Shown here: one piece after another, positions 1 to 46,971 of the stretch
Layout of the letters: every line of letters starts with the position of its first letter
Position numbering within the stretch: the stretch's first letter is position 1
Virus record (IMG/VR): IMGVR_UViG_3300007963_000007
Span: 1-59,061 of that record
DNA length: 59,061 bases
Origin: a virus
Reading direction: 5' to 3' (one strand)
Translations under genes and position numbers: made by a program
Notes under the pieces: model-generated
Databases searched by the model: none
Told to the model about the DNA's origin: nothing
The model's input: the letters and a program-made list of their open reading frames with translations, nothing else

Positions 1-294
1 ACTGGATCGAAAGATCGTCTTGCCCGTGCTGGCATTGTGGAATTCGATTCCTTCGGTAGCGACCAGTATGCTGCCGAAGAACTGATCGCAGAGTTGGGTG
101 CCTGTTTCCTGAGCATGGTCACTGGATGCTGGGGTGACGATCAGGTGGACAATTCCGCAGCCTACATCAAGGGCTGGTCCAGCAAACTGAAGGAGGACCC
201 CAAACTCTACACCCGTGCTGCCAGTGCAGCGCAGAAAGCCGCAGAGTGGATTCTGGGATGCCCCCTCGATGAATGGACCCCCGATGCAGCCTAG
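1..294 (+). CDS. ArdC-like antirestriction protein, C-terminal fragment
   Basis: The open frame runs in from the left edge, so only the last 97 residues are present. The first residues read TGSKDRLARAG, then FGSDQYAAEELIAELGACFL, then an AAYIKGW segment and a helix-rich end. This matches the conserved C-terminal part of ArdC-type proteins, in which H-x-TG follows the HExxH zinc site and is followed by FGS-YA-EEL-AEL-A-FL. ArdC proteins bind single-stranded DNA and protect incoming DNA from restriction; the DNA-binding half and HExxH should lie just outside the window. A GTG at 37 could be misread as a start, but the family match continues upstream of it. A strong hairpin follows the stop. Confidence 0.75.
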   Translation, partial: TGSKDRLARAGIVEFDSFGSDQYAAEELIAELGACFLSMVTGCWGDDQVDNSAAYIKGWSSKLKEDPKLYTRAASAAQKAAEWILGCPLDEWTPDAA

Positions 295-302
295 CCTGAT
301 CC

Positions 303-328
303 CCGCCCCCTGTATCCGCAGGGGGCGG
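303..328 (+). terminator. Hairpin after the ArdC-like gene
   Basis: CCGCCCCCTG and CAGGGGGCGG form a perfect 10-bp stem with a 6-nt loop directly after the stop codon. No U-run follows, so it may be a weak terminator or an mRNA 3'-end stabiliser. Confidence 0.5.
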
Positions 329-377
329 CATTCAGCCAATGCTGAGAACCAAACCAAACCAACAACCAATCCGAATA

Positions 378-695
378 ATGAATTCCGATCAGACCACTAC
401 TACCGACAAGCAGTTCTCCCAACTCCTCAGAATCCAGAGAAACCAACTGGATCGACAGATCAGGGAACTGCTTTACATCGCAGAGAACACCGATGAGGTG
501 ATCCAGAAACTGGAAGTCGAGATGGCAAAAGCTAATGCCGACATCGACTGGGAAGGCTCACCCCATGGGCAGGTGAAGCGGGGACAAGACATCGACAGGG
601 TGGTCAATCGCATTGTCCATAAAGGGGTAGGTCCTCACTTCCTGCCGATGTCTGACAGTCAATTCCAGAGAACCCTCCCGACCCTAAACCACTAA
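378..695 (+). CDS. Small coiled-coil protein
   Basis: Unrecognised protein of 105 residues. The start at 378 is preferred over an in-frame ATG at 339 because it follows the C/A-rich leader (repeated CCAA, then GAATA directly before ATG) that precedes most early genes. The middle part (QLLRIQRNQLDRQIRELLYIA and onward) is charged, helical and probably coiled-coil. The gene sits between the ArdC-like fragment and the first copy of the early promoter block, which begins just after its stop codon. Confidence 0.6.
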   Translation: MNSDQTTTTDKQFSQLLRIQRNQLDRQIRELLYIAENTDEVIQKLEVEMAKANADIDWEGSPHGQVKRGQDIDRVVNRIVHKGVGPHFLPMSDSQFQRTLPTLNH

Positions 696-701
696 TCCTC
701 A

Positions 702-769
702 GAGAGTTACAAACCAAATTCTATTTCCCTCAGAAAAGTCTTGAAATCAAATCAGAATCTGTCTTAAAT
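702..769 (+). promoter_or_regulatory. Early promoter block, copy 1
   Basis: The block has the order ATCCTCA, GAGTTACAAA, TCTATTT, AGAAAAGTC, then a -35 TTGAAA (741-746). A 16-17 bp spacer ends at a weak -10 (CTTAAA 763-768 or TTAAAT 764-769). The predicted transcription start lies within a few bases of the ATG at 780. Near-identical blocks occur at about 1350, 3645 and 5945. Confidence 0.7.
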
Positions 770-779
770 AATCACCGTC

Positions 780-1334
780 ATGAATACTCCTACTCCTACT
801 TGGAAAAAGAAAGTCGCCGCTGAACTGGATCGCACCATGAAAGTGCGGGGCCTGAAAGTCCCCCCGAAATGGCACACGTTTGGTGACCCCCGCATGAACA
901 TCCCGACTCGATGGTTTCGGACAGGGATGGTGACCCTGCGGGATGATGGTCGGCGCAAGTGCAAGAACCATGAAATCCTTTGCCGACTTGTGAGTCGGCA
1001 GGGTCGATGGGCGAGGCCGTCCTCCTCCAGTGAAACGACTCGATTGCAGAGAAGGCAGGACCTTGCCTCGACCATTAGGAAGCACGCCGAAAATGGGAAG
1101 GTTGCCATCGTCCACGGGGGCAGGGATTGTGACATGGTCGAGGTCCATGGACTGGTCAGGGTTCTTCCCGCCACTGTCACCCATGTCGAACAGTTCATTC
1201 AGGAACTGCATGACGGGGCCGAAGGTCCTATCTGGTGGAATGTAGCTCGCCCTTCCGATGCCGAAGATGAGCAGGTCACATCCCGCGACAGGATTGCCGA
1301 GGCTACCGAGGACGGTCACCCATGGAGCGTGTAA
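780..1334 (+). CDS. Unknown early protein, 184 aa
   Basis: The product is not recognised. It is basic in its first 130 residues (many K and R, for example MNTPTPTWKKKVAAELDRT) and acidic near the end (PSDAEDEQVT). The start follows promoter copy 1 by about 10 bases, so the mRNA should be leaderless or nearly so. Long open frames on the opposite strand over the same bases have no promoter or leader and are treated as shadows. The position directly behind a strong early promoter suggests expression at the onset of infection. Confidence 0.6.
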   Translation: MNTPTPTWKKKVAAELDRTMKVRGLKVPPKWHTFGDPRMNIPTRWFRTGMVTLRDDGRRKCKNHEILCRLVSRQGRWARPSSSSETTRLQRRQDLASTIRKHAENGKVAIVHGGRDCDMVEVHGLVRVLPATVTHVEQFIQELHDGAEGPIWWNVARPSDAEDEQVTSRDRIAEATEDGHPWSV

Positions 1335-3655: not shown

Positions 3656-3706
3656 ATTCATTTTATATCAGAAAATCCTTGAATGTTTTCCAATCTCCTG
3701 TATAGT
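3645..3706 (+). promoter_or_regulatory. Early promoter block, copy 3
   Basis: GTTACAAAC, ATTCATTTT, CAGAAAATCC, -35 TTGAAT (3679-3684), 16-bp spacer, -10 TATAGT (3701-3706). The ATG at 3717 is about 10 bases downstream, so a leaderless or near-leaderless mRNA is expected. It has the best -10 of the four blocks. Confidence 0.75.
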
Positions 3707-3716
3707 GTTAACCATC

Positions 3717-3986
3717 ATGAGCGACCAACCTACCATGCAACAGAAAGTGAAAGTCAGAAAGCTCCACGCCGAGGCACCTGCCGAGATTCCTAAGTTCGTC
3801 AAGGCCGCGAAGATCCTGAACAAGATGACCGGACTGTCGGCATCAGTCACCGTAGGTCAACGTGACTCGATCAGGGAGGTCCTGTCCTTCACCCCTGCGA
3901 CTGCCGAGGGCAAGGAACTGCGGGGCAATATCCTGAAGGAGGCTGATTCCCACATCCCTGAAGGCGGTCTGTTCTTTATCGATTAA
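3717..3986 (+). CDS. Unknown early protein, 89 aa
   Basis: Unrecognised. The ATG at 3717 is chosen because the in-frame ATG at 3705 overlaps the -10 box. Residues 9-40 form a basic helix region (QKVKVRKLHAEAP, KFVKAAKILNKMTG). A Ser/Thr-rich middle and a hydrophobic end (GGLFFID) follow. It heads the operon that includes the SprT-like gene. Confidence 0.6.
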   Translation: MSDQPTMQQKVKVRKLHAEAPAEIPKFVKAAKILNKMTGLSASVTVGQRDSIREVLSFTPATAEGKELRGNILKEADSHIPEGGLFFID

Positions 3987-4016
3987 TCCTGAACCCCTCA
4001 CCATCCAACTCCTACC

Positions 4017-4538
4017 ATGTATACTGCCACAGTAGATCGTCGTCACCTGAATCCTAACGAGACTCCCATCGAGTTCATCGAAGAGTTTGCCCGAGTCCAG
4101 TTAGCTAAATGGAACCTCACCGACTGGACCTTTGTCTGGGATAACGCACGCCGCAGATACGGACAGTGCCGACACATCAAGAGAGAGATTAGCCTGAGCA
4201 GGATTCTTACCTCGATGAATGACATCGAGCAGAGCATCGACACTGTCCTCCACGAGATCGCCCATGCACTAGCGGGGCGGGGTCAGGGTCACAACCATGT
4301 CTGGAAGCAGTGGTGCATCAAGGTCGGGGCGCAACCCCAACGGTGCTTCACCTCCACCGTTAACGGTGGGCAGGTAGATACCCCGAAAGGGAAATGGAGA
4401 CTGGTCCATGTCGATACTGGCGAAGTGTTCAGGCACTACCACCGCAAACCGAGAAGGAAGCTGGGCATTCAGCGTGGCGTATGGTGGAGGGGCAGGAAGA
4501 ACGAGACACTGGACAAACTCCAAATCGTAGAAGCGTAA
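4017..4538 (+). CDS. SprT-like zinc metallopeptidase
   Basis: The 173-residue product has HEIAHAL at residues 79-85 (His79, Glu80, His83) and a downstream GHNHVWK (His92, His94). This is the SprT/Spartan arrangement, in which the third zinc ligand follows HExxH within about ten residues. SprT-like enzymes cut DNA-bound or DNA-crosslinked proteins; in a phage it might clear host proteins from DNA. A basic C-terminal half (HYHRKPRRKLGIQRGVWWRGRK) would suit nucleic-acid binding. SD-free leader rich in CC/CA; the next gene starts two bases after the stop. Confidence 0.8.
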   Translation: MYTATVDRRHLNPNETPIEFIEEFARVQLAKWNLTDWTFVWDNARRRYGQCRHIKREISLSRILTSMNDIEQSIDTVLHEIAHALAGRGQGHNHVWKQWCIKVGAQPQRCFTSTVNGGQVDTPKGKWRLVHVDTGEVFRHYHRKPRRKLGIQRGVWWRGRKNETLDKLQIVEA

Positions 4539-4540
4539 CC

Positions 4541-4888
4541 ATGCAAGGAGCAGAAGAATACTTTAAGGGATGGATCTCCGATGGAGACTGGGTCACTTTC
4601 AAACTTATCGAGGGGGACAAGACCTTCATCGAGAAGGGAAAGATAACCTTCCCCAATCAGGATGACTGGGATGAGGGAGTGGCTAAGGACATGGTCTACA
4701 TCTTAAACGAAGACCTCGCAGGTTACGATGGGTGTGATGGTGAGTGGCCTGAGGGCAAGCCTATCCACCGCAACCTGATCGAGGAAAGGCTGGGCGACCA
4801 TAACTGGGAGGACGACCGTGACAGGGAGGATGCCGAGGATTATGAACTTATGAAGCGGGACGCATGGGATGCATACCGCAGACGTTAA
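4541..4888 (+). CDS. Acidic unknown protein, 115 aa
   Basis: Unrecognised. It is strongly acidic (DDWDEGVAKD, DDRDREDAEDYELM) with several Trp. The start is two bases after the stop of the SprT-like gene (TAACC then ATG), so the two are co-translated or at least co-transcribed. Acidic small early proteins are often inhibitors or DNA mimics, but nothing specific supports that here. Confidence 0.6.
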   Translation: MQGAEEYFKGWISDGDWVTFKLIEGDKTFIEKGKITFPNQDDWDEGVAKDMVYILNEDLAGYDGCDGEWPEGKPIHRNLIEERLGDHNWEDDRDREDAEDYELMKRDAWDAYRRR

Positions 4889-14085: not shown

Positions 14086-17000
14086 TTACTTATCTATCCT
14101 TTTAAATTCTGGTTGTCTGTAAATGTGGTTCTGTAGGAGCATGAATCGGTGCCTTGTGGCACTTTCCTTCATCATAATTTCTTTTGCCCTTGGGGACAGG
14201 ATAATCCTTTGGGAGAACCCAAGAGCAGAGTGCTTGACTCTTTTCTCCCCCACCTGTTTTGTTTTTGCCTCTGAGATGATCTCATCCCACGACAACCCTA
14301 GACTGTGGAACCCCCTGACAACGGTCCCCAATTCATCGTTCAGATTGTGGACTGTGTCGGCAACATCCTCATAAATGCTTATGACTTTCTCGTCCGACAT
14401 AGTTCTTTTGGTGTATGTTCGACTCAGCCTAGACTTAGCGTCTCTTGTTCTTCCGGCGTTGTCTCTTAGGTAAGTCCGCAGGTTAGCCGACAAATCAATC
14501 GGGTAAGGTTTAACAGGAAGGAACTCTTGGAACATGATCCCGAGAGGCCCCCGACCCATTAGTCCTTTTCCTGTGTATGTCCCCTGCATAGCACTTACTG
14601 CCTCTGCTATTTTCTTCGGGGTCCTCAACCCATAAGCCTTGTCTACAATATGCAGCGTCCCCCTCCAGAGTTGTTCGCCATAATCATCCCCACCTTTGAT
14701 GAAGATCGGTTGACCACGATCATCCGTGTTTGTGGCAACGTCCATTATCGCTCCGAATAATATCTGCTCTCCCATGTATCCTTCGGCAACGCCCCCCAAA
14801 ATTGAGGGGACAACTTCGTCCCAATCTCCGGTCACCATATGTTCAACCGCACTACTAGTGGGGTTTGTCACCAAGGAGAACGGGTTAAGGTAGGTGAGAT
14901 CCAGACTGTTATACTTCCCATTTTTATCCTTCCAATAAATCAGTCGGTTGTTCCGAAGGTAAGGAGGTGCGCTCAACCTCAATGCCTCTTCCTCATCGTC
15001 ACTAAGACCTGCCCAGAGACGGTTGATCATGGTAGGCAATACCCCGCTAACAAAGGACAACATAAATGTAGAGTGCGCTACCCTGTTTATGCCCCTGTTC
15101 CTGATCACCTTGTTACCGCTTCTCATTTCTTGGAAACCCAGCTTGTAACTATTGATCATGACTCGCGGAACCTCTGCCGCGAACCGCAAGTAAGGGGAAA
15201 TGGCGATCCCTATCTCACCCCTCGTAAAGCCTGTAACCCATGGGGGCGCTTGACTATACGTTTGAGAAGTCATCTTAACCTTCTCTGCCGCTTTCATTTT
15301 CATTGCGGGGGAGGGTGTGCCGTCTGGTCTAAGTAGTCTGCCGAATTGACCACTGGGGTCTGACTCTGCTGCTTGGACCAACACCCTTAACTCATGCTCA
15401 TACAAACTGATCTTATGGTATGCATCCATGGCAGACGCCATACGAGTCAACAGTCCTAGAGTTGCGTTGTAACCACTTGCTGAAGCGTCCCAACCTTTCT
15501 TAACGACCCCCGTCACACGACCTGCTGGGCTTTGCTTACCCAACTTGTCGATCAGTTTGGTTAACCCCTCTTGCACGGAGAAGTAATCTTTCTTGCCTGA
15601 AAGCAAATCTTGCAGAAGCTGTGCGTCCATCTCATCCCCCCACACATTCATTGCAGCAAGCTCTCTAAGTTCTGCGTTCATCTCAGCACGGGAACCGAAT
15701 GCTGCCCTCCTGATAAGGGAGTCCTCTTTCAGACCTTCAGTAAGACCAAGAACACCCCCGCCTTCTTTGAACATGGCACCTATGCTGCCGTAATGCCCTT
15801 GCATAGGCCCGAAGAACAATGCGTTACCAACGGCATTTCTGAGATAGAAACCCGCAGCACCTAATGTCTTAGATGCCAACGAAAGACCAGTGGCGATTTG
15901 CAAGCCCCTGATAACCCCTGCTGCGACTACTGCTGCCATCTTTCTGGGCTTAACCTTGTCCACAGAAAACATTGCGGTTAGGTTGTCCGCAGCTTCTTTC
16001 GGCATATACATTCCAGAAGCGGGATTCCAATCGGGATGCTCCTCATCACGTAGTTGGACCCACCCCGCATACTTCCTGTCATCAGGTGCCAGTTCTCGAT
16101 CTTTCTTAAACTCTTCGGCAGTAATCATCCAAGGTTCTCGCGTGTCCCCACCGACCCCTGAAAGTCTGGTAGTTTTACTTCTGCCATGGGCGACTACTCG
16201 TTGAAGGAATGCTTGGTTCGACATGATCGAACCTACATTTATAAATGTATGCAGAGCATTATCTAACCCAGCCTCGTCCCCATAGACTCCAAGCAATTGC
16301 TGCAATGGTTCTGGGATATCTTTCTTCTCATCAAAACTAGACAAGATTTCCTTGAGGGGTTTAGCAAGATGCGTATGCCCTTTCATGGTTATGTGCTGCA
16401 CGGAGTCGCCCCCGATATACGCATCCATGCTAGTGTCTAGCTTCATATTCCCGTAGCTATCAATGAAGTCGAGCATCATGTTAGTCCCGATAGTCTTAGC
16501 GTCTGTTCCTTTTGCGTGGAGTGCTTGTTCTGCTTGGTCCAAGGCATCACTTCTACTGATAGAAAGGTCGTTCCGCATAATGTGGTCTGCCTCTTGTTCC
16601 AGATACTGTTGGGCGAAGTAGTTCGCGGCGTCTGTCCTAGCTAAAGCATAGTCGGGGTCTGTCTTAATCGTGTCTGCCCAATCATTATCCTCAAACATAC
16701 GGAACCTGCGGGTGAAATAGATCCCCAAGTTAGTATCGAAGACTGCGTCGATAAGTGTGCTGCCGAAAAGATCCTTAGCCTTTGCCGACATCTCGTCTGT
16801 CAACTTACGTAGGTCCAGAACGATAGTCCATACGTCAGTATCAAGCGCCATCAGATCTTTCAACCCCCTGTCTCGTTTAGCGATCTCTATCTGCCTGTTC
16901 TGCTTTCTGTATTTAAGTGTCTCAGCATCACGGTTATCTTTTGCTATTTGAAGAGCAAGGTCCCTGTCTGCCTTATCAGCAATACCCGATGCTGCTTTGC

Positions 17001-20000
17001 GTTCGTTTTGATACAGGGTATCTACTGCCTCCCTCTGGGAGTCGGACAACATAGACCCCCGTATAGATCCACCTGCTTGCGCTATAAGTTCTGGTGGGAT
17101 GTCGATCCCCCGCTTCTTAGCTGCCTTGACCGCTCTGTCAAACCGGAGCTTATAGTCTTCGGCAGTTTTTTTATTCTCCCTGATGAACGCATCCCGCAAC
17201 TCCATAAACTTGAGGATGGCGGGGTCGGACTCCCCCCTGAAAACTTTCCAGAACAGATTGGGGCTTTTATAAGTCCCAATCTCCATAAGCGGAAGATCAA
17301 GCAGTTCAACAAAGTTACTGTAGTCTACAGAGTCCCCGTCTAATACTGAAGGGATGTCTGATGCTGCCCCGTAACGGGATTGCAACTTTGGGGGGTCAAT
17401 CTTTTTGACTCTATAACGGGATGCCCCGTATTTCATGTCGAGGCGCTCCGCTTTACGACGAGCAAATTTGCGTTTGTCGTAAGCGTAGTCCTTGCCTACC
17501 TGCTCCCCAGTGTGGCTGTCTATAATCTTAAAGACAGATTGACCAAAGTGCTTCCGATGTTCCGCTTCAATTTGAAAGAGTGACCCCCCGCCAACCTTCG
17601 CCATCACATTGGCTCTTTCAGCCTGACGAACTTCTTGCGTCAAATTATCGTATGCGAGTCGGGCTTTCTCTTTCCAGAATGTGCTTTTCTTTAGATCTTC
17701 TTCCGTCCAAAGTGGAACAGTCTCACCCTGATAAGCCTCCGTTGTAAGCGAAGCAGGAACAAGTTCCCCCAGACTACGTTCGTCTTGTGCTGAAAAAGTT
17801 CGCCCAGTTGCGTGGCGAACTAAGAATCTAGCGACATCTTCGGGAGGGTAGGTGAAAGCCGCTCCTCGCAAAACGTCACCTAAGTGCTTTGTCCGCGCCC
17901 CTTCGACCAGTGGCAAACGCGCCCTTGAGAGATTTGCGGCATCAAGTAATTGTTTATCGGCGTTCTCTACGGCGTCTTTGTTTTCTTCCATGAAGACGAA
18001 CCCTTGAGTAACCTCCCCTTCAACAAACTGCTTCGCCGTGAAGTCGTATCTTTTTATAGTAGAGGCATTAAAATGATGGTCCTCTGTAGCGGGGGCAAAC
18101 TGTGGAAGGGGGCCTTCCCAACCAACCTCTTCTAAGTAAGCAATTACTTTATCAAAGTGTGCTTTATCTTCTACGTGGGCTATTTTTGTTACTCCCCCCA
18201 AAACGCGAAGGAAGTCTAACCCGAAATGAAAAGCCTTGAGGTCCGTGTTGGCTAATCGGGGGACCTTCTCCTTGACCCAATCAGGGATGCGGCCAAGAGA
18301 ATAGACAGAATCATATACCTTCCCAGCCATAGATGTGCTGAGTTTATAGAACTTTTCAAAAGGCATATTCCAGAACTGGTATTCCTCACTTAAACCTTGG
18401 ACGCTTTCAGCACTGTCTGCCCCGTAACGGGATTGCAGAATGCTCTTCTTGGTAAGGTTGAACCGCTTCGATGGAGGGATCACGTTCCCTTCTTCATCAC
18501 GAAGAACAACTTCTGCTGATTTAATAATTGCTGACGGACCAGTGACAATCTGGGCGGCTAAAGGTTGGTCAAACCCTCTTGACCCACCAACAGCCTTCTC
18601 GTCCCAAATAGTTCCATAGCCTTCTTCTTCGTAGGTTTTCTGCTGGAACCTGCTATCCATGAAACCACCCTTACCTTCGGTGTATTTTATAGGCCCCGTC
18701 TTAATATACACACGGGTCATGGTTCTCATGGGGCCTAACACGGTGTCCGCAGAAATAGCCTTTAGGAAAGCGTCCGTCTTGGGGGTTTTAAGAGCAGATC
18801 GCCTTATAAGTTCTGAGGTTTCTCCAAACGCTTTTTGGACTTCGTTTTTACTAAGACGCACCATGTCCCTCACCCAAGTGGTGACTTTATAATCAGGTAT
18901 GTCGTTGTCCCAGTTATCTAGCACATAATTATAGTCGCCAGAATTGTATGCATCTATCAGCCTTTTCCCAAAGGCCCCAAACATTGTTTGGCCTTCCGCA
19001 CTACCTACGTTAAAGGTCAAAATATCTTTGGCCCTACTATCCCCAATCTTGGGCGGGGCGGCTCGCCTATTGGTGGTCCGCATATCTTCTCTAGGCAGAA
19101 CAGTAGCTTCCGCATTAGCGTAACCTTGTGACAAAAGGTTGTAGGCAACTAGTTGTCGGATAGCTTCGGGAGCTTTTTTGATTACTTCTACAGTCCTCTT
19201 ATTGGCTTTTTTAGCCTCGTTCTTATCAACCCCTATAGCGGGGGTGCCAGAATAAGTTCCCGCCGTGTCTCGATATTTGGCGGCTACATCTTGATCGAAG
19301 TCTTGCACCCAGAAAGCAATGGGACCAAAAACTTCCCTGCCTTTTTCTAACCCGCCTCTAGCGAAGACTTGCGGGACGCCTTGCTCGTCTAGGTGGAACC
19401 CTAATCTAGCGGCTATTTCCTCAATAACTATTTGGGCAGTCGCCAAGTCACCTGCCGCTACTGCATCTAAGTAGTGGTCATCTACTTCTTCCGCAGTCTG
19501 TCTCTCAGGGAATCCAGTGGGGGTAACCCCCGCAACTGACCCCCCGTAGCGAGACTGAAGTTTTTTCGGGGGTGTTAGTCCTCCCCGACGATCTCCGTCA
19601 GCGTCTCTAGATACTCTTCCTCTTCGCTGGTTAGCGGTGGATTCTCTAAAAGAGACTGCATCATTTCCTCTTTCGTTTCGGAAGACTTCGTTGGCGGCTG
19701 TAGCGTAATCAGGCGCTTCTTCTTGCCCCGACCCGAATTCTTTGTGGACTGCTTTTTCATAATACCAAAGTATCGCTTGCGCTTCCGCAGGGATCATGCG
19801 GACCCCAGTTGAGGATTCTAATTTATCCATCGCGCCCATCATTGCAAGTCTAATAAACCTGCGGTGACCTCCTGAAACTGGGGCTTCAATTAATTCTACC
19901 CCATTATCAAGAACCTTATAAAGAGCATTGGTAGCTTTCCTGAGTTCATCAGTTACAGGAGATGCTTTCTCCATCTTGCCAGAAAACTCAACCCATGAAC

Positions 20001-23000
20001 CTTCGCTCTCGCCCCAGAACATCTGTCTGTGGCTGGGCTTTGTCCAGAACTTGGCTAACCCTATAACAAGGTCCGTGCTTCTTTTGCGTTTACGACCAAG
20101 CCCTGCTTGTTTGAACAACTCCCCTTTCGGGTCCGTTTTAATATACGCCTCTAAAGCTGCATCTACTCTTTTCTTTTTCGCTGCGAATTCCGCACGGGTG
20201 TCCTTCGCTAGTTGCGCCCCTATTGTCCGACCGAAGGTTCTCATGAACCAAAGGTCCATGGTAATGGGATCAAAGTTTCCGTTAAGGTTATGGTGGAACG
20301 AACCTAACTTAGCCCCAAAGACTAGCGCGAACGGAACCGTCTCGTCGATCAACTCCCCTGTAGTTAATTTTTCTGCCTGTGTTTTGGTGTAACCAAAGTC
20401 CACTTGCAGTCTTTCTCTTAGCTCCGCTACGGTTCCTGTGGTAGATAAGAACTCTTCAACGAATTCCCAACCATGTTGGTCCGCCCATTTATCTAGTAGC
20501 TTTAAATGACCATTAATCGCAGACGGTCTTGTGCCTCTCGGCTTTTCATCGTTGAAGAATTTGCCTGTAGCTTTCCACTGCTTATAGATTCTCCAAGAAT
20601 CCTCTGTCTGCTCTTTAACCTTGTTGCCGTTTGATGTGACAGCAAGAAGGGCTTTAAGCACAAAACTATTCTCTGGCTTTTTAATGTCGGGGTCTAGTTC
20701 CTCAAAAATATCGAGGGCCATTTTAACACGCTCCTCATACCAAGAAACAAAGTCAGGGTATTCATACAAAGCACGTTCAAGAACCCCAAGTATCTTACCC
20801 GCAGTTTTTTCGACATCTTCGTAATATGCTGCTTCCTTACCCTTGTCTTTCCAATCTTTCGCCTGACCTCTCCAATTTTTCTTCCAATCAACCCTGTCTT
20901 TAGGGGCGATCTTAGAGTCCAGAAGTTTTGCTAACTCATGGGGTTTACTGCCTAGTATGCCAGAGTCGATATGTTCGACTCCCCTATGCATCGCTTCGTC
21001 TACTTTTGATTGCGCGGCACTTACATTCTCAGAAAACTCAATGTCCCCACCGTAGCGTGTCTGCAATTTCTGCAACGTGGTAGGTGATTCCTGATTCTTG
21101 TCTACTGATTCCCGAAGTCTCTCATGCGCGGGGCGGTCGGATTCTAGTTCAGGGTCTAGTGGGGCGAACACCGCATTCCGTGCGAGGACAGTGAAGTTCT
21201 TAAATGGATTCTTCTCGCCCTGTTCATGCGCTTTGAGATCACTGACCATCATCACTTCGTCCGCAGAAACAAATTTCTGGTCCGTGTTATAAACGTCTGC
21301 CCCTTGGTCATCTTTGGACGCACTATACATATAGTTCCCTTGGGCAGGGTTATATGCCAGAGTACCCCACTCGGAGAGATCTAGGTCACTAATGTCGATA
21401 GCTTCATTGGCAGAGACAAGGTCCCCTGATGGTCCCCCTACTACTGTCTTTGCTCCTTGCGCGTAAACAACAGTTCCTGCTGGGACAATTTGTTTTTTGC
21501 CCAGCAACTCAAGTTCAGGGTTCGTCAGCAACAAATCAGTTTTGCCAATCTTTGCTGCTGCGCGGTTCCTATTAGCTTGTCTGTTAATATTGTCCGCGAC
21601 CTCCTCAAGAGTCATGGCTTCCTCAAGGACATAAGAAGCGGCAGACCCCTTCAAAAAGGTTTCGTATTGGGCGTCCGATAAGTTTACTCCTGCATTAGAC
21701 AAGCGGACGTTAAACGCATTGTATTTCTTGCCTCTAATAGCGACAGAAAAAGGCATTACTCCCAGAGGGTAGCTTTCGTCAAAAGCCTCGTTTTCTGTCC
21801 CGCCCTTTAGCAACCTTTCTCTACTTAGTCTTCCAAGAGTAATATTGGTGTGCGATTTACCAACACGAACTGTCCTCCCTGCTTTGGCGTCTTCTATAAA
21901 CGATTCAGGAAGAGGACTTGCGTTAGTAACAACCGACTTGCCTTCTGCTAGACCCCCCAGTCCTGTATGGTCGGAGGGGACTCCTCCAGCATCGGCACCT
22001 ATTCTAGTTTGTAGTGAGGGGGTCAACACCGCAGGACCTTCACTTTCGTCTTCTTCCTCGTCCCTGCCTTCTACGGACTTGTTCATTTCCAACTGCTTCA
22101 GCAACTGGCGAAGAGTCGCATCAGGATCGGCAGTATCAAAATGCATACCGTTAGGGGAAGTCCGGTAACCCGCTTCCATTGCCCTCATCTCAGTGATCAT
22201 ACGGTTCACTGACTTCCTCATGTAAGGAGGCACTTGCCCACTTACACGATATGTCAACTTACGAAGTTGAGCTTTGAAATACTTCTGGACAGTCTTAATG
22301 AGGGTAGGATTCTCCAAAAGGAAATCTACGTTCTCTTCCGTAGTCGCGCCCCTAAGCACATTCTGTGTGTGCATCCGTAAGCTCTCTTCAACCAAGATGA
22401 ATTTCTCAGCCTCTCTAACTTTGGGGTCGGGGCTGTTCAATCTTTCTACTGCCTCCGCTTGTTCATCTGCTGGGTAGTATTTCTCTATGACCTTCAACGC
22501 TTCTTTGTTGGTCATAGCTGCCATCATGTCGTTGATTTCAGCTTGCGTGAGCGTAGCGAAAGAACTGACATGGGCCATCTCCTCATTAAGAATCTGAGAA
22601 AGTATATGCTCTCTGTTTATTCCTGTCCCCCCAGCTTCGGCTAACTTTTTGTTTAAGAAGATAGCGGCTCGCACACCGTTGATATGGATCGACTGTGTGT
22701 CTAGGTTGAACTCTGCAATGACATCGATACTGTCATCAAATACGACATTTACTTCGTTGGGCAGGAAAGCCGCCGCCCAAGCATAAATCTCTCTGGCGCT
22801 TTCGATTAGTTTTTCCTCTAGTGCGGCTTCCCCCCTGCCCCCGATGCTGGAGGCCAGTGCGTTCCTTCTAGTCTGAGAACCTACAACGCTAGCCGCAACT
22901 GATTCTGCGATAGACCCTCCGGTTACGGGGTCGGTTTGCGTAGCAATATCAAGCACCTTGGCTACGGCTTCACTGTATTGCCTAGATGGGACTCCCATCA

Positions 23001-26000
23001 ATTGCCCTAAGCGTATTAAGATCCTTTGCAACAAATTGCGTGAGCCATCTGGCACCCTGATACCTTTGACGTATTTTTGGAATTTAGGGGATACCAAGAT
23101 GTGAGTTAAAAACTCATCTAGGTTTGACATGGCATAATCAACTAAGCCACTTTGGGGTCCTTTGTTTGCTTCCCTCCTGACTTGTTGGAAAAGTGCTTCA
23201 AGCGCGGCGATTGATTCGTTTTCTTTTGCCGTCCTATTTTTAGGGTCAGTCCGAAGAATCCCAAATGTAATTGCGTGGGTAAGTTCATGCAGGAGAACCC
23301 CCTCAACACCTCCTTCTGCCCGTCGAGCTAAGTTAATAGCTACTTGGGGGGTGCCTGTCGCATCAACTGTATACTCACCAGCAAACGCATGAGTAGACAC
23401 ATCCATAACAAAGTTGATTCTGGAAAGAAGCCCTTTCTTGCTAAGAATAATTTTAGCAACAAGTGCATACATCTTGTTTTTTCCTTTAGAAATTTTCTCT
23501 AAAGCAGAAATAACAGAGTCCATGTTGCCATTCTCTAGACCGAGTGCATCGACTTCTTTCATGTTCCGCTTTATGTTTTGTTTGCGGGACTTGCCATCTA
23601 CAATGGCGCGTGAATGAAATGCTTGAGTAGCTTTCTTAACGTCTTTGAAGAAATCTTTTGCGTTAGTTATGGTGACTTCCACATCTTCCCCCATAATACC
23701 TTGCAAGGATTCTCTGACTAATTCGGCGTAAGACGGGTCAGTATCTGGGGACGCTTCAACTTGGGGGGCTGAGATGCCAAGAATCTTGAGCGTCTTTCTA
23801 AGAGGGGCAGCGTTTGTATACGCTCCAGCTTTCAGTTCCAATTGAAACTGGAGGGCAGACTTATTAGATGAAGTCGCCCCAGTAACAAAGTAGGCTACTA
23901 GTTCGTCAAAGACTTGCTCTGGTGTTTTTTTGTCTGCGTTCCCTTCTGCGTCTTGGTAAACCGTTGCATTAAGGAGCATTTTAGCTGCCCCCAACAATTC
24001 AGGATCTCCTTCTAATGCTGCTGCTGCGCCTGTGTGCAGGTCTTGGATAAACCCTTCCAATGTAGCTTGCGATGGGGGGCGCATAGGGTTGAGTCGTGGC
24101 GGGACGTAGGTGTCGTCTCTGCCATTCTCTTCTGGGTTGTATGTCTCCTCAGAAGTGTGAAGGTCTGTGTCAGGTTCAAGCAAACTGACAAAACTTCTCT
24201 TAGCCCGTTTTGCTCTTTGGAATTGTTGTCTCTGGAAGAACTGTCCATGTCTGTCCTTTGTTTCAAGGATAGATATAATATTGGAGTCGGTATCCGAATC
24301 TGCTGATTTAGCCGAATACTCGTAAACGGCTTTTTGAATCTCTAACTGCAAAGCTACGGCGGTAGCTTCCACAAAATCTTTATTAAGGTTTAAAGATTCA
24401 TCCGAAGCGACGGCCCCACGAAGGAGTTCTATGTTGCTAGCCTTCTTGAGCAACCCCGCTAGAGTTATTTGTCTACTTGGTCTGAACGGGTCGGTAACTT
24501 TAACTTTGCCGTTGAAAGGTTTTGCCGCTTCTTTCGCGGCTTTAACTTGTTGGGCTAGTTCTGTGAAAACAGAGTAGTCTTCTTCTAACGCGCCGACTTT
24601 GTTAAAGGCAGTCTTTGCGGAAACCAGCCCCCCAGATTCACGGACCATAATGTCCGATACAAAAAACTGGTCGCCTACTTGTTCAAACCTAAACGATGGA
24701 TTAGTTGTGTCGGCGTTGACTATTTCTTCCGTAACGGGGACAGCCACATTACTCTCAAGTAGAGTGAGCATACCTGCTGGGTCATTGTTAAACACCCCAT
24801 GCCCCTTTGAATTTACAAAAACAAAGCTGGCTACGCCTCCATACACAGACGGGACTTTAGCCCCGCCAGCAGGTTTCGTTTTTCTTAAAACAGGAAACCT
24901 CTCCCTAATTTTTTTTGCCAATGTCTGCGTTAACACGGCTAGCGATGCATTGTCCGTCTCTGCAACAGCAACACCTAAGTCTTCAAGTTGGCTAACTTCT
25001 AAAGAATGTGGGAAGCCTCCTTCAACTAAACTTTCAATAGCTTCTTCTGCTTCTTTAGAAGGGCCTTTCTTTTCAGCTTCTCTAAGGGCCGCAATATCCC
25101 TATTGAATGTTTCTAACAAAGTTCTTTTTACTGCCTCACCTTGCTCTGGGGACATAACCCTGCCCGACTCGACAGCTTCACGTATGCTTCGTCTGAGCCT
25201 ATCTGCGGCGGCACCTTCTGGGGTTTCTTGAAGTTGCCTTTCCAGTTGCCTAAATAGTTTAACACGCTTCTCTACGCCTTTTAGGTTTAGTGTGTAGGCA
25301 ACTTTTAAATCAATTTTAACCTGCTTGGCAGAGTGCTGGGACGTTACTCGTCCTGCACCATTGGTGTCCCCCTCGCTTTCAGTTAGGAGTTGAGTAGCTG
25401 CCGAAGAACTAGCAGTTTCCAGATCAACAGAACTTTTTGTTTTCTTCCTAGCCGACTCGGTGTTTACTGCCTCCTCTACTGTTTCTTTAGGGATGTTTTT
25501 CATCCCTTCTTCAATCGAGTCCGCTTCCGCTTTTACATCTTCGGGGGAAAGTTTCTCTAAGGTTTCGTCCGCTTCTTCTTCTTCGGTTAGTGTAGTGCCA
25601 TCGGTTTCTTCGGCTCTTTTATACCTCCTAATAATACGCTCCGCTTCCTTAGCCGTAGTAGGCGCACCCGCCCTTTTGAGTTGCCCCGTCAAACCCTTCG
25701 CTTCGACATCTTTTTCGTATTGCTCGAAAAGGCTTTTCTCAAATCTTGCTGCCGCCGCCTGATCAAGGAACATACGGGGGGCAACATTCTTTGCCGTCCT
25801 CCCAATAAAGGTTGACCCCGCGCCCATCAGCCCCCCTAACAAGGCGGCGTGGAAAACCCCCTGCATTCTTTCAAGGAAAGGAGTGTCTTCGTCTGTAGCG
25901 GCATCAATAATGAAAGAGTTTAATAGTTCATCTAACCCTTCTTCGTATGCCTCATCAGCAAAATTTCTCAGGTAACTCTTGGGGGCGTCAATAAAATGCT

Positions 26001-28413
26001 TACGTATAGCCTTCTTAATAGACCTTTTGAATACTTCTTTAAACGCTTCGTTTCCAACATTACGTCCTAATACAGCAGACGTAATCCTTTTAATTTGACG
26101 GAAGGACATATTCCGTAGCAAGGCGTCTTCAACCCCGCCACGACCAATCATGGACATACCAGAAGTAAGGATGCCTGTCATAAGCCCTGCTTTTAAACCT
26201 GCTCCTAGCGCGGCATCATGGGCTTCGGCTTTAACTCTCTCTTCACTCCAGCCCTCTTCCCAAGTGCCATCTTCGTTTTGGTGGCGGGATTTCAGGTCGT
26301 CCTCAATATGTTTAAAGACTGTCCCGTAAGTCCCTCCTGCCGACCTGTTGGCAGCAGGTAAAAACACAGCAGGGGCCATGGCAATCTTCTTGGTAAGTCC
26401 GCTATTGTATGCCCTGATGACTGCATTAGCTTGATCAAGATCACCTACGATTTCTTTCTTGAACAAGTCTTTAGCTCGTTTTTCAAAAGATTCTTTGCCC
26501 GTAACTCTAAGGCTTCCTCTGAACGCTGCCGCTATAATTTGTCTCGCCGCGACAGTAGCACTAGTCTTTGCCCCTACATAACCAACTGCTGCGGCACCAG
26601 TAGCCCCAAACGTGGGGGCGGCGGCTGCGGCTAACAAACCAGTAACGCCCATGTCCAGCATTACGGGGGCAATCATCTCTAATGCGTCTTGGCCAAGACC
26701 AAACTTGTCGCCAAACAACCTGCCCATTTCTCGTTGGTGGGCTTTCTCTGACGCAGTTTTAAGCAAACCTTGTTGACCCCACTCGGCACCTGACATAGCG
26801 GCGATGCCGTGGACGATACCCAAAACACCTTCATCCCAAATACTGCGCCCCAACCCTTCCATGCTTTCAGAAAACTTATTCCAGTTCGCTTCGTCAGTTG
26901 TGAACTGTTCTAAAATTTCTCTGTTTGAAATACCTTGTTGACGACCAGTGACAACGGCTTGCGACCACTTGTCCCCAAGATCTTTATCTTTAGAAATTAT
27001 ATCGTTATAAGTATCAAACGATGCCTCAACTTCAATTTGGCGTAGTTGTTCTAAAGCCTCTTGTGTTTTGGAATCTACCAAAGCGGCGTCCAATGCATTG
27101 GCATGGAGGTCGGGTCGGGCTTTAAGTTCCTGTGCTACTGTGGGGAGCTTGTAGGTCCCGTAATGCACGTTAAGCCACTGATCGTCCTCGTTCTCATGGT
27201 ATACATACCACCCTTCTGGCTTCTCGTCGTGTAGTTCTCCAGTGCCTACTTTGGCTTTACCATTGTCGAGAGTTAATTGATCGGCCACATCTTCCAAGAC
27301 ATCGCGGCTGTAATCTAATTTCGCACCTAAATCCGCAATAAGACTATCTCTAGTGTTAGAGAAATTATCCGCATAAGTTTCTTGTAGAAACTCCGCTTCT
27401 TCCATAGCACGAATTGCTTCGTCTTGCCCCCCAAAAATTTTTGCTAGAAGCTGACCTCCAGATTCATACACATCAGCACTAGCAGTGCCAACATTATCCC
27501 AGAAACCATACTTAGAACGCGCTTTACTCTCCGTCAAAGCGTCGAGCATAATAGATAAATGCCTATTCTCCGACACTTGATGCATAGGCCCTATTAACCG
27601 ATCTTGTTTTATCAGTTCGATTGCTTCGGCTTCTGCGATGTATCGCTGCTGAATTTCCCAGTATTTTAGCAAAGTGTTTTTGTTAGTGTATAACGACTCA
27701 GAATACTCGGGAATACGATTGTTGAATTTTATATTAAAGAAATGCTGCGGTCTTACTCCGTAGTCACTGGACTCCTTGATAACATCGGCAATCGTTTTGC
27801 CTTCTGGAATCCTGCCTCCTAATAGGCGAGGCTTACCATCTTCATAAACAACAGCCGCATTAATCTCGCCCCTGTTAAAAAGTTTAGTCCTTTGGTCTGT
27901 CTCAGCGCGTTGCAGAACCTCTCTTACAAGCCCAGTCTTTACCTCAACTTCTGTAGGACCTACTTCCGTCTCGTCTTGCTCGTAAGTCCCCGCTTGAATT
28001 CTAGCGGACAAATCCAAGAAGTCGTCAATTTTCCCTACGTCTTTCCTAGTTAAAGGACTCTTATCATTTTTGTTGAGCCACCCTAATTCATGAGCCGCTT
28101 TGATTCTTTCGGCCCGTTCGTAATCACTAATCCTGTCTAAGTTTTGGATTTGTGAAGCTACTTCATCCCTATTTTCTTCTGTGAGATACCCATGCCCCGA
28201 TAAGTAACTAACTAAATCACCACCGATACGGTCCTCTGCTTCTTCATTGTAAAGCCCCGCCTCCATGTGGGCTATGCGAACATGATCCATGTATCGTGCT
28301 ACTTGCTCGATGGGGTCCTCAAAAACATTGTTCTGAGTCCAAACTTCAAACGGAGTCACTTTAGGACTCCGGTTATCTCCAGTGGTAGGGTCGGGTATGC
28401 TTTGGTCTGACAT
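14086..28413 (-). CDS. Giant polyvalent internal virion protein, 4775 aa
   Basis: One uninterrupted 14.3-kb frame. The N-terminal 1.5k residues are long charged helices with hydrophobic stretches near residues 575-625 (LAAAAAPTFGATGAAAVGY), 745 and 865. A zincin domain has HELTH (His1709, Glu1710, His1713) with a probable third ligand Glu near 1767. A second, degenerate site EEMAH lies at 1944-1948. From residue 2134 five copies of L-Q-[ST]-R-[YI]-G separate modules of about 316, 502, 374, 351 and 1099 residues. Module 2450-2952 contains FGAKLGSFHHNLNG and TMDLWFMRTFGRTIG, as in domains of other phage large polyvalent proteins. Module 2952-3326 ends KSAEVVLRDEEGNVIPPSKRF, a tail also recurrent in such proteins. 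The C-terminal module has hydrophobic helices near 4170 and 4457. Its place behind the terminase and lack of a tape-measure gene suggest an ejected virion protein. Enzymatic roles beyond the zincin are not established. Confidence 0.8.
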   Translation of the reverse strand: MSDQSIPDPTTGDNRSPKVTPFEVWTQNNVFEDPIEQVARYMDHVRIAHMEAGLYNEEAEDRIGGDLVSYLSGHGYLTEENRDEVASQIQNLDRISDYERAERIKAAHELGWLNKNDKSPLTRKDVGKIDDFLDLSARIQAGTYEQDETEVGPTEVEVKTGLVREVLQRAETDQRTKLFNRGEINAAVVYEDGKPRLLGGRIPEGKTIADVIKESSDYGVRPQHFFNIKFNNRIPEYSESLYTNKNTLLKYWEIQQRYIAEAEAIELIKQDRLIGPMHQVSENRHLSIMLDALTESKARSKYGFWDNVGTASADVYESGGQLLAKIFGGQDEAIRAMEEAEFLQETYADNFSNTRDSLIADLGAKLDYSRDVLEDVADQLTLDNGKAKVGTGELHDEKPEGWYVYHENEDDQWLNVHYGTYKLPTVAQELKARPDLHANALDAALVDSKTQEALEQLRQIEVEASFDTYNDIISKDKDLGDKWSQAVVTGRQQGISNREILEQFTTDEANWNKFSESMEGLGRSIWDEGVLGIVHGIAAMSGAEWGQQGLLKTASEKAHQREMGRLFGDKFGLGQDALEMIAPVMLDMGVTGLLAAAAAPTFGATGAAAVGYVGAKTSATVAARQIIAAAFRGSLRVTGKESFEKRAKDLFKKEIVGDLDQANAVIRAYNSGLTKKIAMAPAVFLPAANRSAGGTYGTVFKHIEDDLKSRHQNEDGTWEEGWSEERVKAEAHDAALGAGLKAGLMTGILTSGMSMIGRGGVEDALLRNMSFRQIKRITSAVLGRNVGNEAFKEVFKRSIKKAIRKHFIDAPKSYLRNFADEAYEEGLDELLNSFIIDAATDEDTPFLERMQGVFHAALLGGLMGAGSTFIGRTAKNVAPRMFLDQAAAARFEKSLFEQYEKDVEAKGLTGQLKRAGAPTTAKEAERIIRRYKRAEETDGTTLTEEEEADETLEKLSPEDVKAEADSIEEGMKNIPKETVEEAVNTESARKKTKSSVDLETASSSAATQLLTESEGDTNGAGRVTSQHSAKQVKIDLKVAYTLNLKGVEKRVKLFRQLERQLQETPEGAAADRLRRSIREAVESGRVMSPEQGEAVKRTLLETFNRDIAALREAEKKGPSKEAEEAIESLVEGGFPHSLEVSQLEDLGVAVAETDNASLAVLTQTLAKKIRERFPVLRKTKPAGGAKVPSVYGGVASFVFVNSKGHGVFNNDPAGMLTLLESNVAVPVTEEIVNADTTNPSFRFEQVGDQFFVSDIMVRESGGLVSAKTAFNKVGALEEDYSVFTELAQQVKAAKEAAKPFNGKVKVTDPFRPSRQITLAGLLKKASNIELLRGAVASDESLNLNKDFVEATAVALQLEIQKAVYEYSAKSADSDTDSNIISILETKDRHGQFFQRQQFQRAKRAKRSFVSLLEPDTDLHTSEETYNPEENGRDDTYVPPRLNPMRPPSQATLEGFIQDLHTGAAAALEGDPELLGAAKMLLNATVYQDAEGNADKKTPEQVFDELVAYFVTGATSSNKSALQFQLELKAGAYTNAAPLRKTLKILGISAPQVEASPDTDPSYAELVRESLQGIMGEDVEVTITNAKDFFKDVKKATQAFHSRAIVDGKSRKQNIKRNMKEVDALGLENGNMDSVISALEKISKGKNKMYALVAKIILSKKGLLSRINFVMDVSTHAFAGEYTVDATGTPQVAINLARRAEGGVEGVLLHELTHAITFGILRTDPKNRTAKENESIAALEALFQQVRREANKGPQSGLVDYAMSNLDEFLTHILVSPKFQKYVKGIRVPDGSRNLLQRILIRLGQLMGVPSRQYSEAVAKVLDIATQTDPVTGGSIAESVAASVVGSQTRRNALASSIGGRGEAALEEKLIESAREIYAWAAAFLPNEVNVVFDDSIDVIAEFNLDTQSIHINGVRAAIFLNKKLAEAGGTGINREHILSQILNEEMAHVSSFATLTQAEINDMMAAMTNKEALKVIEKYYPADEQAEAVERLNSPDPKVREAEKFILVEESLRMHTQNVLRGATTEENVDFLLENPTLIKTVQKYFKAQLRKLTYRVSGQVPPYMRKSVNRMITEMRAMEAGYRTSPNGMHFDTADPDATLRQLLKQLEMNKSVEGRDEEEDESEGPAVLTPSLQTRIGADAGGVPSDHTGLGGLAEGKSVVTNASPLPESFIEDAKAGRTVRVGKSHTNITLGRLSRERLLKGGTENEAFDESYPLGVMPFSVAIRGKKYNAFNVRLSNAGVNLSDAQYETFLKGSAASYVLEEAMTLEEVADNINRQANRNRAAAKIGKTDLLLTNPELELLGKKQIVPAGTVVYAQGAKTVVGGPSGDLVSANEAIDISDLDLSEWGTLAYNPAQGNYMYSASKDDQGADVYNTDQKFVSADEVMMVSDLKAHEQGEKNPFKNFTVLARNAVFAPLDPELESDRPAHERLRESVDKNQESPTTLQKLQTRYGGDIEFSENVSAAQSKVDEAMHRGVEHIDSGILGSKPHELAKLLDSKIAPKDRVDWKKNWRGQAKDWKDKGKEAAYYEDVEKTAGKILGVLERALYEYPDFVSWYEERVKMALDIFEELDPDIKKPENSFVLKALLAVTSNGNKVKEQTEDSWRIYKQWKATGKFFNDEKPRGTRPSAINGHLKLLDKWADQHGWEFVEEFLSTTGTVAELRERLQVDFGYTKTQAEKLTTGELIDETVPFALVFGAKLGSFHHNLNGNFDPITMDLWFMRTFGRTIGAQLAKDTRAEFAAKKKRVDAALEAYIKTDPKGELFKQAGLGRKRKRSTDLVIGLAKFWTKPSHRQMFWGESEGSWVEFSGKMEKASPVTDELRKATNALYKVLDNGVELIEAPVSGGHRRFIRLAMMGAMDKLESSTGVRMIPAEAQAILWYYEKAVHKEFGSGQEEAPDYATAANEVFRNERGNDAVSFRESTANQRRGRVSRDADGDRRGGLTPPKKLQSRYGGSVAGVTPTGFPERQTAEEVDDHYLDAVAAGDLATAQIVIEEIAARLGFHLDEQGVPQVFARGGLEKGREVFGPIAFWVQDFDQDVAAKYRDTAGTYSGTPAIGVDKNEAKKANKRTVEVIKKAPEAIRQLVAYNLLSQGYANAEATVLPREDMRTTNRRAAPPKIGDSRAKDILTFNVGSAEGQTMFGAFGKRLIDAYNSGDYNYVLDNWDNDIPDYKVTTWVRDMVRLSKNEVQKAFGETSELIRRSALKTPKTDAFLKAISADTVLGPMRTMTRVYIKTGPIKYTEGKGGFMDSRFQQKTYEEEGYGTIWDEKAVGGSRGFDQPLAAQIVTGPSAIIKSAEVVLRDEEGNVIPPSKRFNLTKKSILQSRYGADSAESVQGLSEEYQFWNMPFEKFYKLSTSMAGKVYDSVYSLGRIPDWVKEKVPRLANTDLKAFHFGLDFLRVLGGVTKIAHVEDKAHFDKVIAYLEEVGWEGPLPQFAPATEDHHFNASTIKRYDFTAKQFVEGEVTQGFVFMEENKDAVENADKQLLDAANLSRARLPLVEGARTKHLGDVLRGAAFTYPPEDVARFLVRHATGRTFSAQDERSLGELVPASLTTEAYQGETVPLWTEEDLKKSTFWKEKARLAYDNLTQEVRQAERANVMAKVGGGSLFQIEAEHRKHFGQSVFKIIDSHTGEQVGKDYAYDKRKFARRKAERLDMKYGASRYRVKKIDPPKLQSRYGAASDIPSVLDGDSVDYSNFVELLDLPLMEIGTYKSPNLFWKVFRGESDPAILKFMELRDAFIRENKKTAEDYKLRFDRAVKAAKKRGIDIPPELIAQAGGSIRGSMLSDSQREAVDTLYQNERKAASGIADKADRDLALQIAKDNRDAETLKYRKQNRQIEIAKRDRGLKDLMALDTDVWTIVLDLRKLTDEMSAKAKDLFGSTLIDAVFDTNLGIYFTRRFRMFEDNDWADTIKTDPDYALARTDAANYFAQQYLEQEADHIMRNDLSISRSDALDQAEQALHAKGTDAKTIGTNMMLDFIDSYGNMKLDTSMDAYIGGDSVQHITMKGHTHLAKPLKEILSSFDEKKDIPEPLQQLLGVYGDEAGLDNALHTFINVGSIMSNQAFLQRVVAHGRSKTTRLSGVGGDTREPWMITAEEFKKDRELAPDDRKYAGWVQLRDEEHPDWNPASGMYMPKEAADNLTAMFSVDKVKPRKMAAVVAAGVIRGLQIATGLSLASKTLGAAGFYLRNAVGNALFFGPMQGHYGSIGAMFKEGGGVLGLTEGLKEDSLIRRAAFGSRAEMNAELRELAAMNVWGDEMDAQLLQDLLSGKKDYFSVQEGLTKLIDKLGKQSPAGRVTGVVKKGWDASASGYNATLGLLTRMASAMDAYHKISLYEHELRVLVQAAESDPSGQFGRLLRPDGTPSPAMKMKAAEKVKMTSQTYSQAPPWVTGFTRGEIGIAISPYLRFAAEVPRVMINSYKLGFQEMRSGNKVIRNRGINRVAHSTFMLSFVSGVLPTMINRLWAGLSDDEEEALRLSAPPYLRNNRLIYWKDKNGKYNSLDLTYLNPFSLVTNPTSSAVEHMVTGDWDEVVPSILGGVAEGYMGEQILFGAIMDVATNTDDRGQPIFIKGGDDYGEQLWRGTLHIVDKAYGLRTPKKIAEAVSAMQGTYTGKGLMGRGPLGIMFQEFLPVKPYPIDLSANLRTYLRDNAGRTRDAKSRLSRTYTKRTMSDEKVISIYEDVADTVHNLNDELGTVVRGFHSLGLSWDEIISEAKTKQVGEKRVKHSALGFSQRIILSPRAKEIMMKESATRHRFMLLQNHIYRQPEFKRIDK
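17368..17385 (-). repeat. LQSRYG linker motif, copy 5 (residue 3677)
   Basis: Encodes P-K-L-Q-S-R-Y-G-A at the junction to the C-terminal 1099-residue module; preceded by a basic, Pro-containing linker (KKIDPPK). Candidate protease processing site. Confidence 0.75.
18421..18438 (-). repeat. LQSRYG linker motif, copy 4 (residue 3326)
   Basis: Encodes K-S-I-L-Q-S-R-Y-G-A-D. Same core as copies 3 and 5 but with different codons (CTG-CAA-TCC-CGT-TAC-GGG). Confidence 0.75.
19543..19560 (-). repeat. LQSRYG linker motif, copy 3 (residue 2952)
   Basis: Encodes P-P-K-K-L-Q-S-R-Y-G-G-S after an Arg/Asp-rich disordered linker (RRGRVSRDADGDRRGG). Codons CTT-CAG-TCT-CGC-TAC-GGG differ from the other copies. 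Confidence 0.75.
21049..21066 (-). repeat. LQTRYG linker motif, copy 2 (residue 2450)
   Basis: Encodes L-Q-K-L-Q-T-R-Y-G-G-D; the Ser is replaced by Thr. Lies between two apparently unrelated modules. Confidence 0.75.
21997..22014 (-). repeat. LQTRIG linker motif, copy 1 (residue 2134)
   Basis: Encodes T-P-S-L-Q-T-R-I-G-A-D after a Glu/Asp-rich linker (EGRDEEEDESEGP). Tyr is replaced by Ile. A weaker relative, L-A-S-S-I-G-G, lies at residue 1853 (around 22840-22857). Confidence 0.65.
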
Positions 28414-46014: not shown

Positions 46015-46971
46015 TTACAAATCAATTTCGTTGTAGACGGCCATGTTTTTTTCTAGTGCGACTTGCAGGGCAGCAGAAAGCTGACTTTCCCAAACAAACG
46101 CTTCTCTACAGGTTCCATCTATAGGGTTTTTGTTGTCTTTCCTCGCTCCGATTCTAAATCTATTCCGATTCCCTATGTGTTTATCTTCGTTGGTGTCTTT
46201 AGTAGTCTCGGTGCCGTTGACTCTAAGTATCTGAGAATTCCCGTCTCCCCCTTGGGCGCTCGCCCTACTGCGGTCATACGATCCTATCACAACCATATTG
46301 GTGTCTGTAGGTTGACTAGCAGCACTTGCTAAGTCATGAGAATCTACAGACACATTATAAGCTACTGAAGTATTTCCAGTCAGTTCCACCCCATCATTAA
46401 AGTTATCTAAATCAACAAGCAGACCCGCCCCCCCACTGAAACTAAATATCTGCCCTGCCCAGACTAAAGTGAAATCGTCAGGACTGTTGGGTAGTCTGTA
46501 GTTGTTTACTTGGAAATAATCACCGTAAGCATAATGCCCCCCCACTGTTTCAAATTTTAAAGCATTTTTAGTCTTGGCCCCCGATACCATTAGAAGGGGT
46601 TGCCTACCTGATGTGGTTTGAACTGCATCTGGTGCAGTAGCATAACCACTCCAAGAGCCGCCCCCAGCTTGTGTGCTGGTATTACCACTTTGATTATACC
46701 ATTTGGGGACTGTAACGTCGCCGCCCCCTGCAAAATCCCGAAGCGTTGACCCTGCACTGGTCATGCTTTCGCTAGTGACTTCTTTATCGTTATAAAACTC
46801 GACATCAGCTTCGGTGCCGCTTGAGTTCCTCACTCTTAACGCATACCCAGTATAAGCGGCACGGAGTTTTCTTAAACTGTATGCCAGCCTAGCAGTGGGC
46901 ATTCCGCTTATGTCAAGAGGGGGGATAACATTTCTCTGGAATAACCCCGACAGTGACGGTCTTATAATCAT
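46015..46971 (-). CDS. Tail fibre/tip protein with carbohydrate-binding-type domain
   Basis: The 318-residue product has AYSLRKLRAAYTGYALRVRN, then VPKWYNQSGN and GRQPLLM. This pattern is found in alpha-L-arabinofuranosidase-B-like and LamG-like jelly-roll domains of phage tail fibres and marine enzymes. Most of the rest is beta sandwich (GDYFQVNNYRLPNSPDDFTL, VVIGSYDRSR). It probably binds or processes a cell-surface glycan. Coupled by ATGA to the repeat-rich fibre gene. Confidence 0.65.
   Translation of the reverse strand: MIIRPSLSGLFQRNVIPPLDISGMPTARLAYSLRKLRAAYTGYALRVRNSSGTEADVEFYNDKEVTSESMTSAGSTLRDFAGGGDVTVPKWYNQSGNTSTQAGGGSWSGYATAPDAVQTTSGRQPLLMVSGAKTKNALKFETVGGHYAYGDYFQVNNYRLPNSPDDFTLVWAGQIFSFSGGAGLLVDLDNFNDGVELTGNTSVAYNVSVDSHDLASAASQPTDTNMVVIGSYDRSRASAQGGDGNSQILRVNGTETTKDTNEDKHIGNRNRFRIGARKDNKNPIDGTCREAFVWESQLSAALQVALEKNMAVYNEIDL

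Follow-up and report, generated by a model that had tools for sequence, protein, structure and literature searches.

The window analysed here, a 59,061-nucleotide stretch of the IMG/VR virus record IMGVR_UViG_3300007963_000007, raises the question of why one short motif recurs between the modules of a single giant protein, and whether this motif marks sites of processing. The protein, of the ejection/polyvalent type, is 4775 aa long and is encoded at 14086..28413 on the minus strand. Its gene lies among packaging and virion genes, a large terminase gene (phrog_2, 4.7e-13) being located upstream with two small genes in between, and each chain combines several disparate modules that are exchanged among relatives, both of which are traits of the polyvalent class. 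The protein also displays the zincin trait, a predicted metallopeptidase with HExxH and a downstream Glu. A Pfam search with the whole protein gave zero matches at E≤0.05 and a search with the separate modules gave none above the cut-off; curated polyvalent domains were thus unmatched in the window protein. Comparison with named phages gave partial matches only. Elsewhere in the window, a tail-fibre-like ORF (46968-49049, minus strand) contains a DENFTSADHTKLDGIEAGATADQ-type unit repeated several times in near-identical form.

The first-pass annotation had reported five copies of LQ[ST]R[YI]G and proposed them as processing sites. By direct search of the ORF, we recovered all five at the named residues, 2134 (LQTRIGA, 21997..22014), 2450 (LQTRYGG, 21049..21066), 2952 (LQSRYGG, 19543..19560), 3326 (LQSRYGA, 18421..18438) and 3677 (LQSRYGA, 17368..17385), all on the minus strand, and the spacings of 316, 502, 374, 351 and 1099 aa were confirmed; counted along the stop-to-stop frame, the residue numbers are 11 higher. 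The fifth residue varies in the first copy (RIG). Composition predicts about 0.0006 (6e-4) copies versus the five observed, and LQ[ST]R was not found elsewhere in the 4775-aa ORF. A search for repeated spaced words that was blind to this proposal placed Q.RYG, LQ.R.G and LQ.RY at the top in the giant protein. None of the other window ORFs examined contained the motif, and in most loci checked it was restricted to the giant ORF.

The copies delimit the parts of the chain, all of which are on the minus strand. The N-core (residues 1-2133, 22015..28413), conserved in relatives and 38% identical to that of locus L002, holds the zincin domain, with HELTH at residues 1709-1713 (23275..23289) and a conserved Glu downstream at about residue 1767. 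A second zincin-like unit, NEEMAH (residues 1943-1948, 22570..22587), has Asn in place of the first His and, to judge from its sequence, is probably inactive; this type of second repeat is kept in many relatives. Module 1 (residues 2134-2449, 21067..22014) is common to L002 and L014 at 52% identity. Module 2 (residues 2460-2950, 19564..21036) is a mostly helical LPD-type domain present in many unrelated carriers. Module 3 (residues 2952-3325, 18439..19560) ends in GNVIPPSKRF-NLTKKSI and is a divergent ART-type module, an identity read from this tail, which is common to ART modules. Module 4 (residues 3326-3676, 17386..18438) has no assigned type. In viral contigs, we found no relatives of module 4 and no close relatives of module 3. 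The C-core (residues 3677-4775, 14089..17385) is conserved in about 15 relatives.

The surroundings of the motifs were modelled using AlphaFold. For residues 2400-3000 (28 sequences), most of the module was well folded, with blocks at pLDDT 80-97. For residues 1560-2470 (16 sequences), the mean pLDDT was 59, and a three-stranded sheet with the HExxH helix was predicted at about 1660-1775. Copies 1 and 3 were predicted as disordered (pLDDT about 20-30 and <50, respectively) and copy 2 fell in a low-confidence linker (about 43-51). Placement of the motifs inside folded domains, which the first-pass annotation had named as contrary to its proposal, was not seen for motifs 1-3, since each lay in a low-confidence linker outside the folded modules. 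These models are consistent with disordered linkers, low pLDDT being no proof of disorder. In fold searches, neither model had a match at E≤0.001; zincin-fold proteins were among the top-ranked weak hits for the zincin model.

Relatives were taken from IMG/VR loci, whose records are metagenomic and often fragments. Profiles of the two cores matched 18 and 9 loci, partly on the same contigs. In 12 other relatives, module borders again carry the form L[QE][ST][RQK]φG[ASGV], and nearly all cassette-bearing relatives have the motif there, with three copies in L010, L012, L014 and L025 (LESRFGAD), four in L013 (LET form), two in L011, L032 and L038, and a single copy placed before the C-core in L018, L019, L020 and L024. 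Among 31 clade copies, L1 and G6 alone never vary; position 3 is S or T and position 2 is Q (18 copies) or E (13 copies). Between the window protein and that of L002, the alignment covers 5-2460 and 3666-4740, and in both the cassette left unaligned is bounded by motifs. When all pairs were compared, 230 of 304 homology breakpoints (HSP ends in the cassette region, which are non-independent) fell within 15 aa of a motif, representing 76% versus 12% at random positions. The claim that the motif marks module borders therefore extends to homologues. Several non-homologous modules come directly after a motif. In L016, L017 and L023, the N-core is joined directly to the C-core without a cassette, and no motif was found at the junction. 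One module, WSTP..EFSSADTSIN-like and perhaps a methyltransferase, is common to L012 (residues 2124-2338), L046 (residues 2238-2486) and L019 (about residue 2185); the motif precedes it in L012 and L046 and not in L019. In L002, the gene upstream of the giant protein (1-954, plus strand) has a C-terminus that ends with LQSKTRTRADDP, which is partly motif-like, and the window counterpart lacks it.

A scan with the LPD module matched 80 loci. The cores are common to the window, L012, L025 and L038; in L046, L080, L088 and L074, the LPD module is the sole part shared with the window, and L080 and L088 have a second module in common. The blind search returned other repeated motifs, SKAR (L046), GKAQ (L080), FSVDE (L088), NYSI (L074), IN[ML]QS (L039), N.AASLD (L112) and QFMPAE (L085 and L087), and further equivalents in unrelated polyvalent proteins were FLP.R and FSLK. 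Several carrier motifs were individually non-significant in this search, and the main weight lies on the tests of position. A carrier motif stood 118-143 aa upstream of the LPD core in seven carriers (window 141, L012 140, L025 124, L046 143, L080 127, L074 118, L088 124), and the next one 360-384 aa past it in six (window 361, L012 360, L025 374, L046 364, L080 384, L088 365), L074 having none. L087, with a motif 182 aa upstream, is outside this pattern, the copies of L039 bracket the LPD match only loosely, and LPD homology starts at the motif in L112. The LPD modules of L046 and L088 are 58.6% identical and have SKAR and FS[LV]D as motifs, respectively. Because one LPD family is found next to each carrier's own motif, we consider the motif a property of the carrier and not of the module, and its match to the carrier therefore suggests that it is read by something that comes with the carrier.

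A scan with an ART-type module matched 80 viral and 47 bacterial-genome loci. ART modules end in IPLSxRF....DI[RL], and the carrier's motif comes next. For 82 module ends in 76 non-redundant proteins, the 4-mers right after the ART end recurred elsewhere in the same protein, other ART ends excluded, 41 times versus 3.2 expected from other polyvalent proteins. This excess was limited to about 5-6 residues, with values near background beyond, and recurrence within the protein was observed for 26 of the 76 ART-bearing proteins. A motif after ART modules is common, not universal. Motifs also flank the ART module of L118 and adjoin Pfam domains, GNAT in L118 and PBECR5 in L226; in Clostridia genomes, [KR]FS[LMD][KR] precedes PBECR5 domains and in several cases also follows them.

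At the DNA level, the varying codons of the five copies had been taken as a sign of selection on the protein and against recent DNA duplication. For the window as a whole this stands, 18 of 50 synonymous codons being identical versus 16.2 expected. It does not stand for copies 4 and 5, which share nearly all of their DNA (CAA TCC CGT TAC GGG GCA) and may reflect recent DNA copying. In L010, L012, L013 and L126, as in the window, codon identity was about chance while the residues were kept, and protein-level selection is therefore needed. Identical synonymous codons were counted at 22/22 in L118 (10.7 expected), 24/30 in L087 (14.9 expected), 20/24 in L025 (8.3 expected) and 11/13 in L085 (5.9 expected); in these four loci, 15-24 nt of motif DNA are almost the same among copies with unrelated flanks, as if cassettes had been exchanged through the motif DNA. 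Such patterns, together with window copies 4 and 5 and the homology breakpoints at motifs, would be expected if the motif DNA were a short homology patch for cassette exchange with an incidental protein sequence. We hold this reading to be highly improbable as a full account, given the near-chance codons and kept residues of the window, L010, L012, L013 and L126, and a role as a seam would be compatible with an added protein role. For the window overall, the codon test led us to reject pure DNA duplication, which we accept as a partial cause elsewhere. Random codons in some loci and near-identical DNA in others thus indicate that motifs spread as DNA pieces and were also kept as protein.

A motif kept as protein could also act without cleavage. 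A carrier-specific partner, such as a core protein, a chaperone, the portal or the ejection machinery, could recognize the motif of each module at packaging or translocation. Docking of this kind accounts for the carrier specificity, the conservation at the protein level, the location in linkers and the lack of a motif where no cassette is present, and a precedent is provided by P1 DarB, which a short N-terminal signal directs to the capsid according to excerpts of PMC9024508. However, one chain should need one targeting signal rather than one per module or on both sides, and there is no known partner; we regard docking as rather unlikely. Alternatively, the motif could be a strand or hinge that closes or spaces the modules, as its position directly at module edges and the fixed RF....DIR that ends ART modules before it might suggest. 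Such a structural role is very unlikely in our view, as one module family bears unrelated motifs in different carriers and AlphaFold confidence is low at motifs 1-3.

Cleavage is preferred for several reasons: the sites seem accessible, enclose whole modules and disappear where cassettes are lacking, the class carries peptidases, and the related internal proteins P1 DdrB and DarA are reported as processed (excerpts of PMC5512222 and PMC12810830). The giant protein would belong to the polyvalent class as an ejection protein of podoviral type, with a zincin N-core, a conserved C-core and swappable effector cassettes between them, and with a short motif in a flexible linker at each cassette border that would be held by selection on the protein. 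A reader accompanying the carrier would recognize the motif at the protein level. This reader would most likely be a protease that releases the modules by cutting at or beside the motif, whether prior to packaging, inside the capsid or following injection. The data show the motif itself, its placement at borders, its carrier specificity and the low-confidence linkers of motifs 1-3; we infer cleavage, the protease, its timing and injection. The first-pass proposal is partly supported, its border position, protein-level conservation and predicted disordered linkers being borne out and its protease and separately packaged proteins being conjectural; the phage most likely injects the giant protein into bacteria. 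Overall, we give about an even chance to a processed ejection protein whose motif is recognized by a factor matched to the carrier, probably a protease freeing modules. Weighing against it are the loci with motifs and no HExxH (below), the lone copy before the C-core in L018, L019, L020 and L024, the recurrence at ART ends in just 26 of 76 proteins, the reportedly unprocessed N4 vRNAP with its HExxH, and the structural nature of the ejection protein PhiM1 gp48. More tentatively, and with somewhat less than even confidence, polyvalent proteins in general may be polyproteins governed by a processing code that is specific to the carrier, each lineage having its own site and matched reader; at the same tentative level, acquired modules may be brought under the carrier's site, with a code that permits free cassette shuffling.

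The first candidate protease for this clade would be the embedded HExxH zincin. The H, E and H of HELTH are conserved in 16 of 16 aligned relatives, and the zincin region matches the tetrameric ejection protein gp48 of PhiM1 (PDB 8vb2, profile E=5.5e-9) and another internal virion protein in PDB (9e-9). The embedded zincin is not a universal reader, because L112, L121, L156 and L234 have repeated motifs and no HExxH. A strict link between motif and embedded zincin was also rejected, the frequency of HExxH being similar with strong motifs (21/26) and without them (43/56). Thermolysin-like zincins favour a hydrophobic P1' residue; the first motif residue (L, F or Y) would fit this preference, which is only suggestive. 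Separately, well away from its virion genes, the window has an ORF with a SprT-like zinc metalloprotease domain (4017-4538, plus strand; E=7.8e-12, HEIAH).

A search limited to the open-access literature yielded no description of such a motif, and we found no named phage with a virion proteome that carries it. The motif provides exact sites for the zincin question posed in 2017, namely whether and where injected polyvalent proteins are cut, which virion mass spectra could address. It also allows module borders to be located in proteins whose domains are unrecognized, and it may lead to the protease or partner that matches the carrier. Should the motifs prove to be processed, they would represent a new family of site/protease pairs.

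Among known systems, the prohead proteases (T4 gp21, SPN3US gp245, P1 Pro) likewise act on phage-specific short sites in virion proteins. Unlike these systems, the window record, which may be a fragment, gave no S78 or S49 prohead protease match and has the motif in one protein only, and a prohead protease was rejected as the reader in the window. As in RNA-virus polyproteins, where 3C-like proteases cut LQ/S after Q, one short site is repeated between functional units; a 3C-like P1-Gln site was rejected, since Q and E alternate at the second residue in the clade and the motifs of other carriers are unrelated. The N4-like virion RNA polymerase resembles the giant protein, according to excerpts of PMC12633501, as a giant injected virion protein with an HExxH domain and a large helical C-terminal part; the HExxH-bearing N4 vRNAP is described in excerpts of PMC5512222 as unprocessed when packaged. 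PhiM1 gp48 shares the zincin-like region by profile match and is a structural ejection protein, whose cleavage is unmentioned in excerpts of PMC11440229; it differs in its size (1263 aa versus 4775 aa), and the C-core had no match in PDB, ejection proteins included. The polyvalent proteins, as described in excerpts of PMC5512222, differ from the window protein in that neither a repeated inter-module motif nor a carrier-specific site is part of the description. They are like it in being multi-domain giants that combine a zincin metallopeptidase with effector modules, ART-type ones among them, and autoprocessing by the zincin was proposed for them on other grounds (Iyer 2017, excerpts of PMC5512222).
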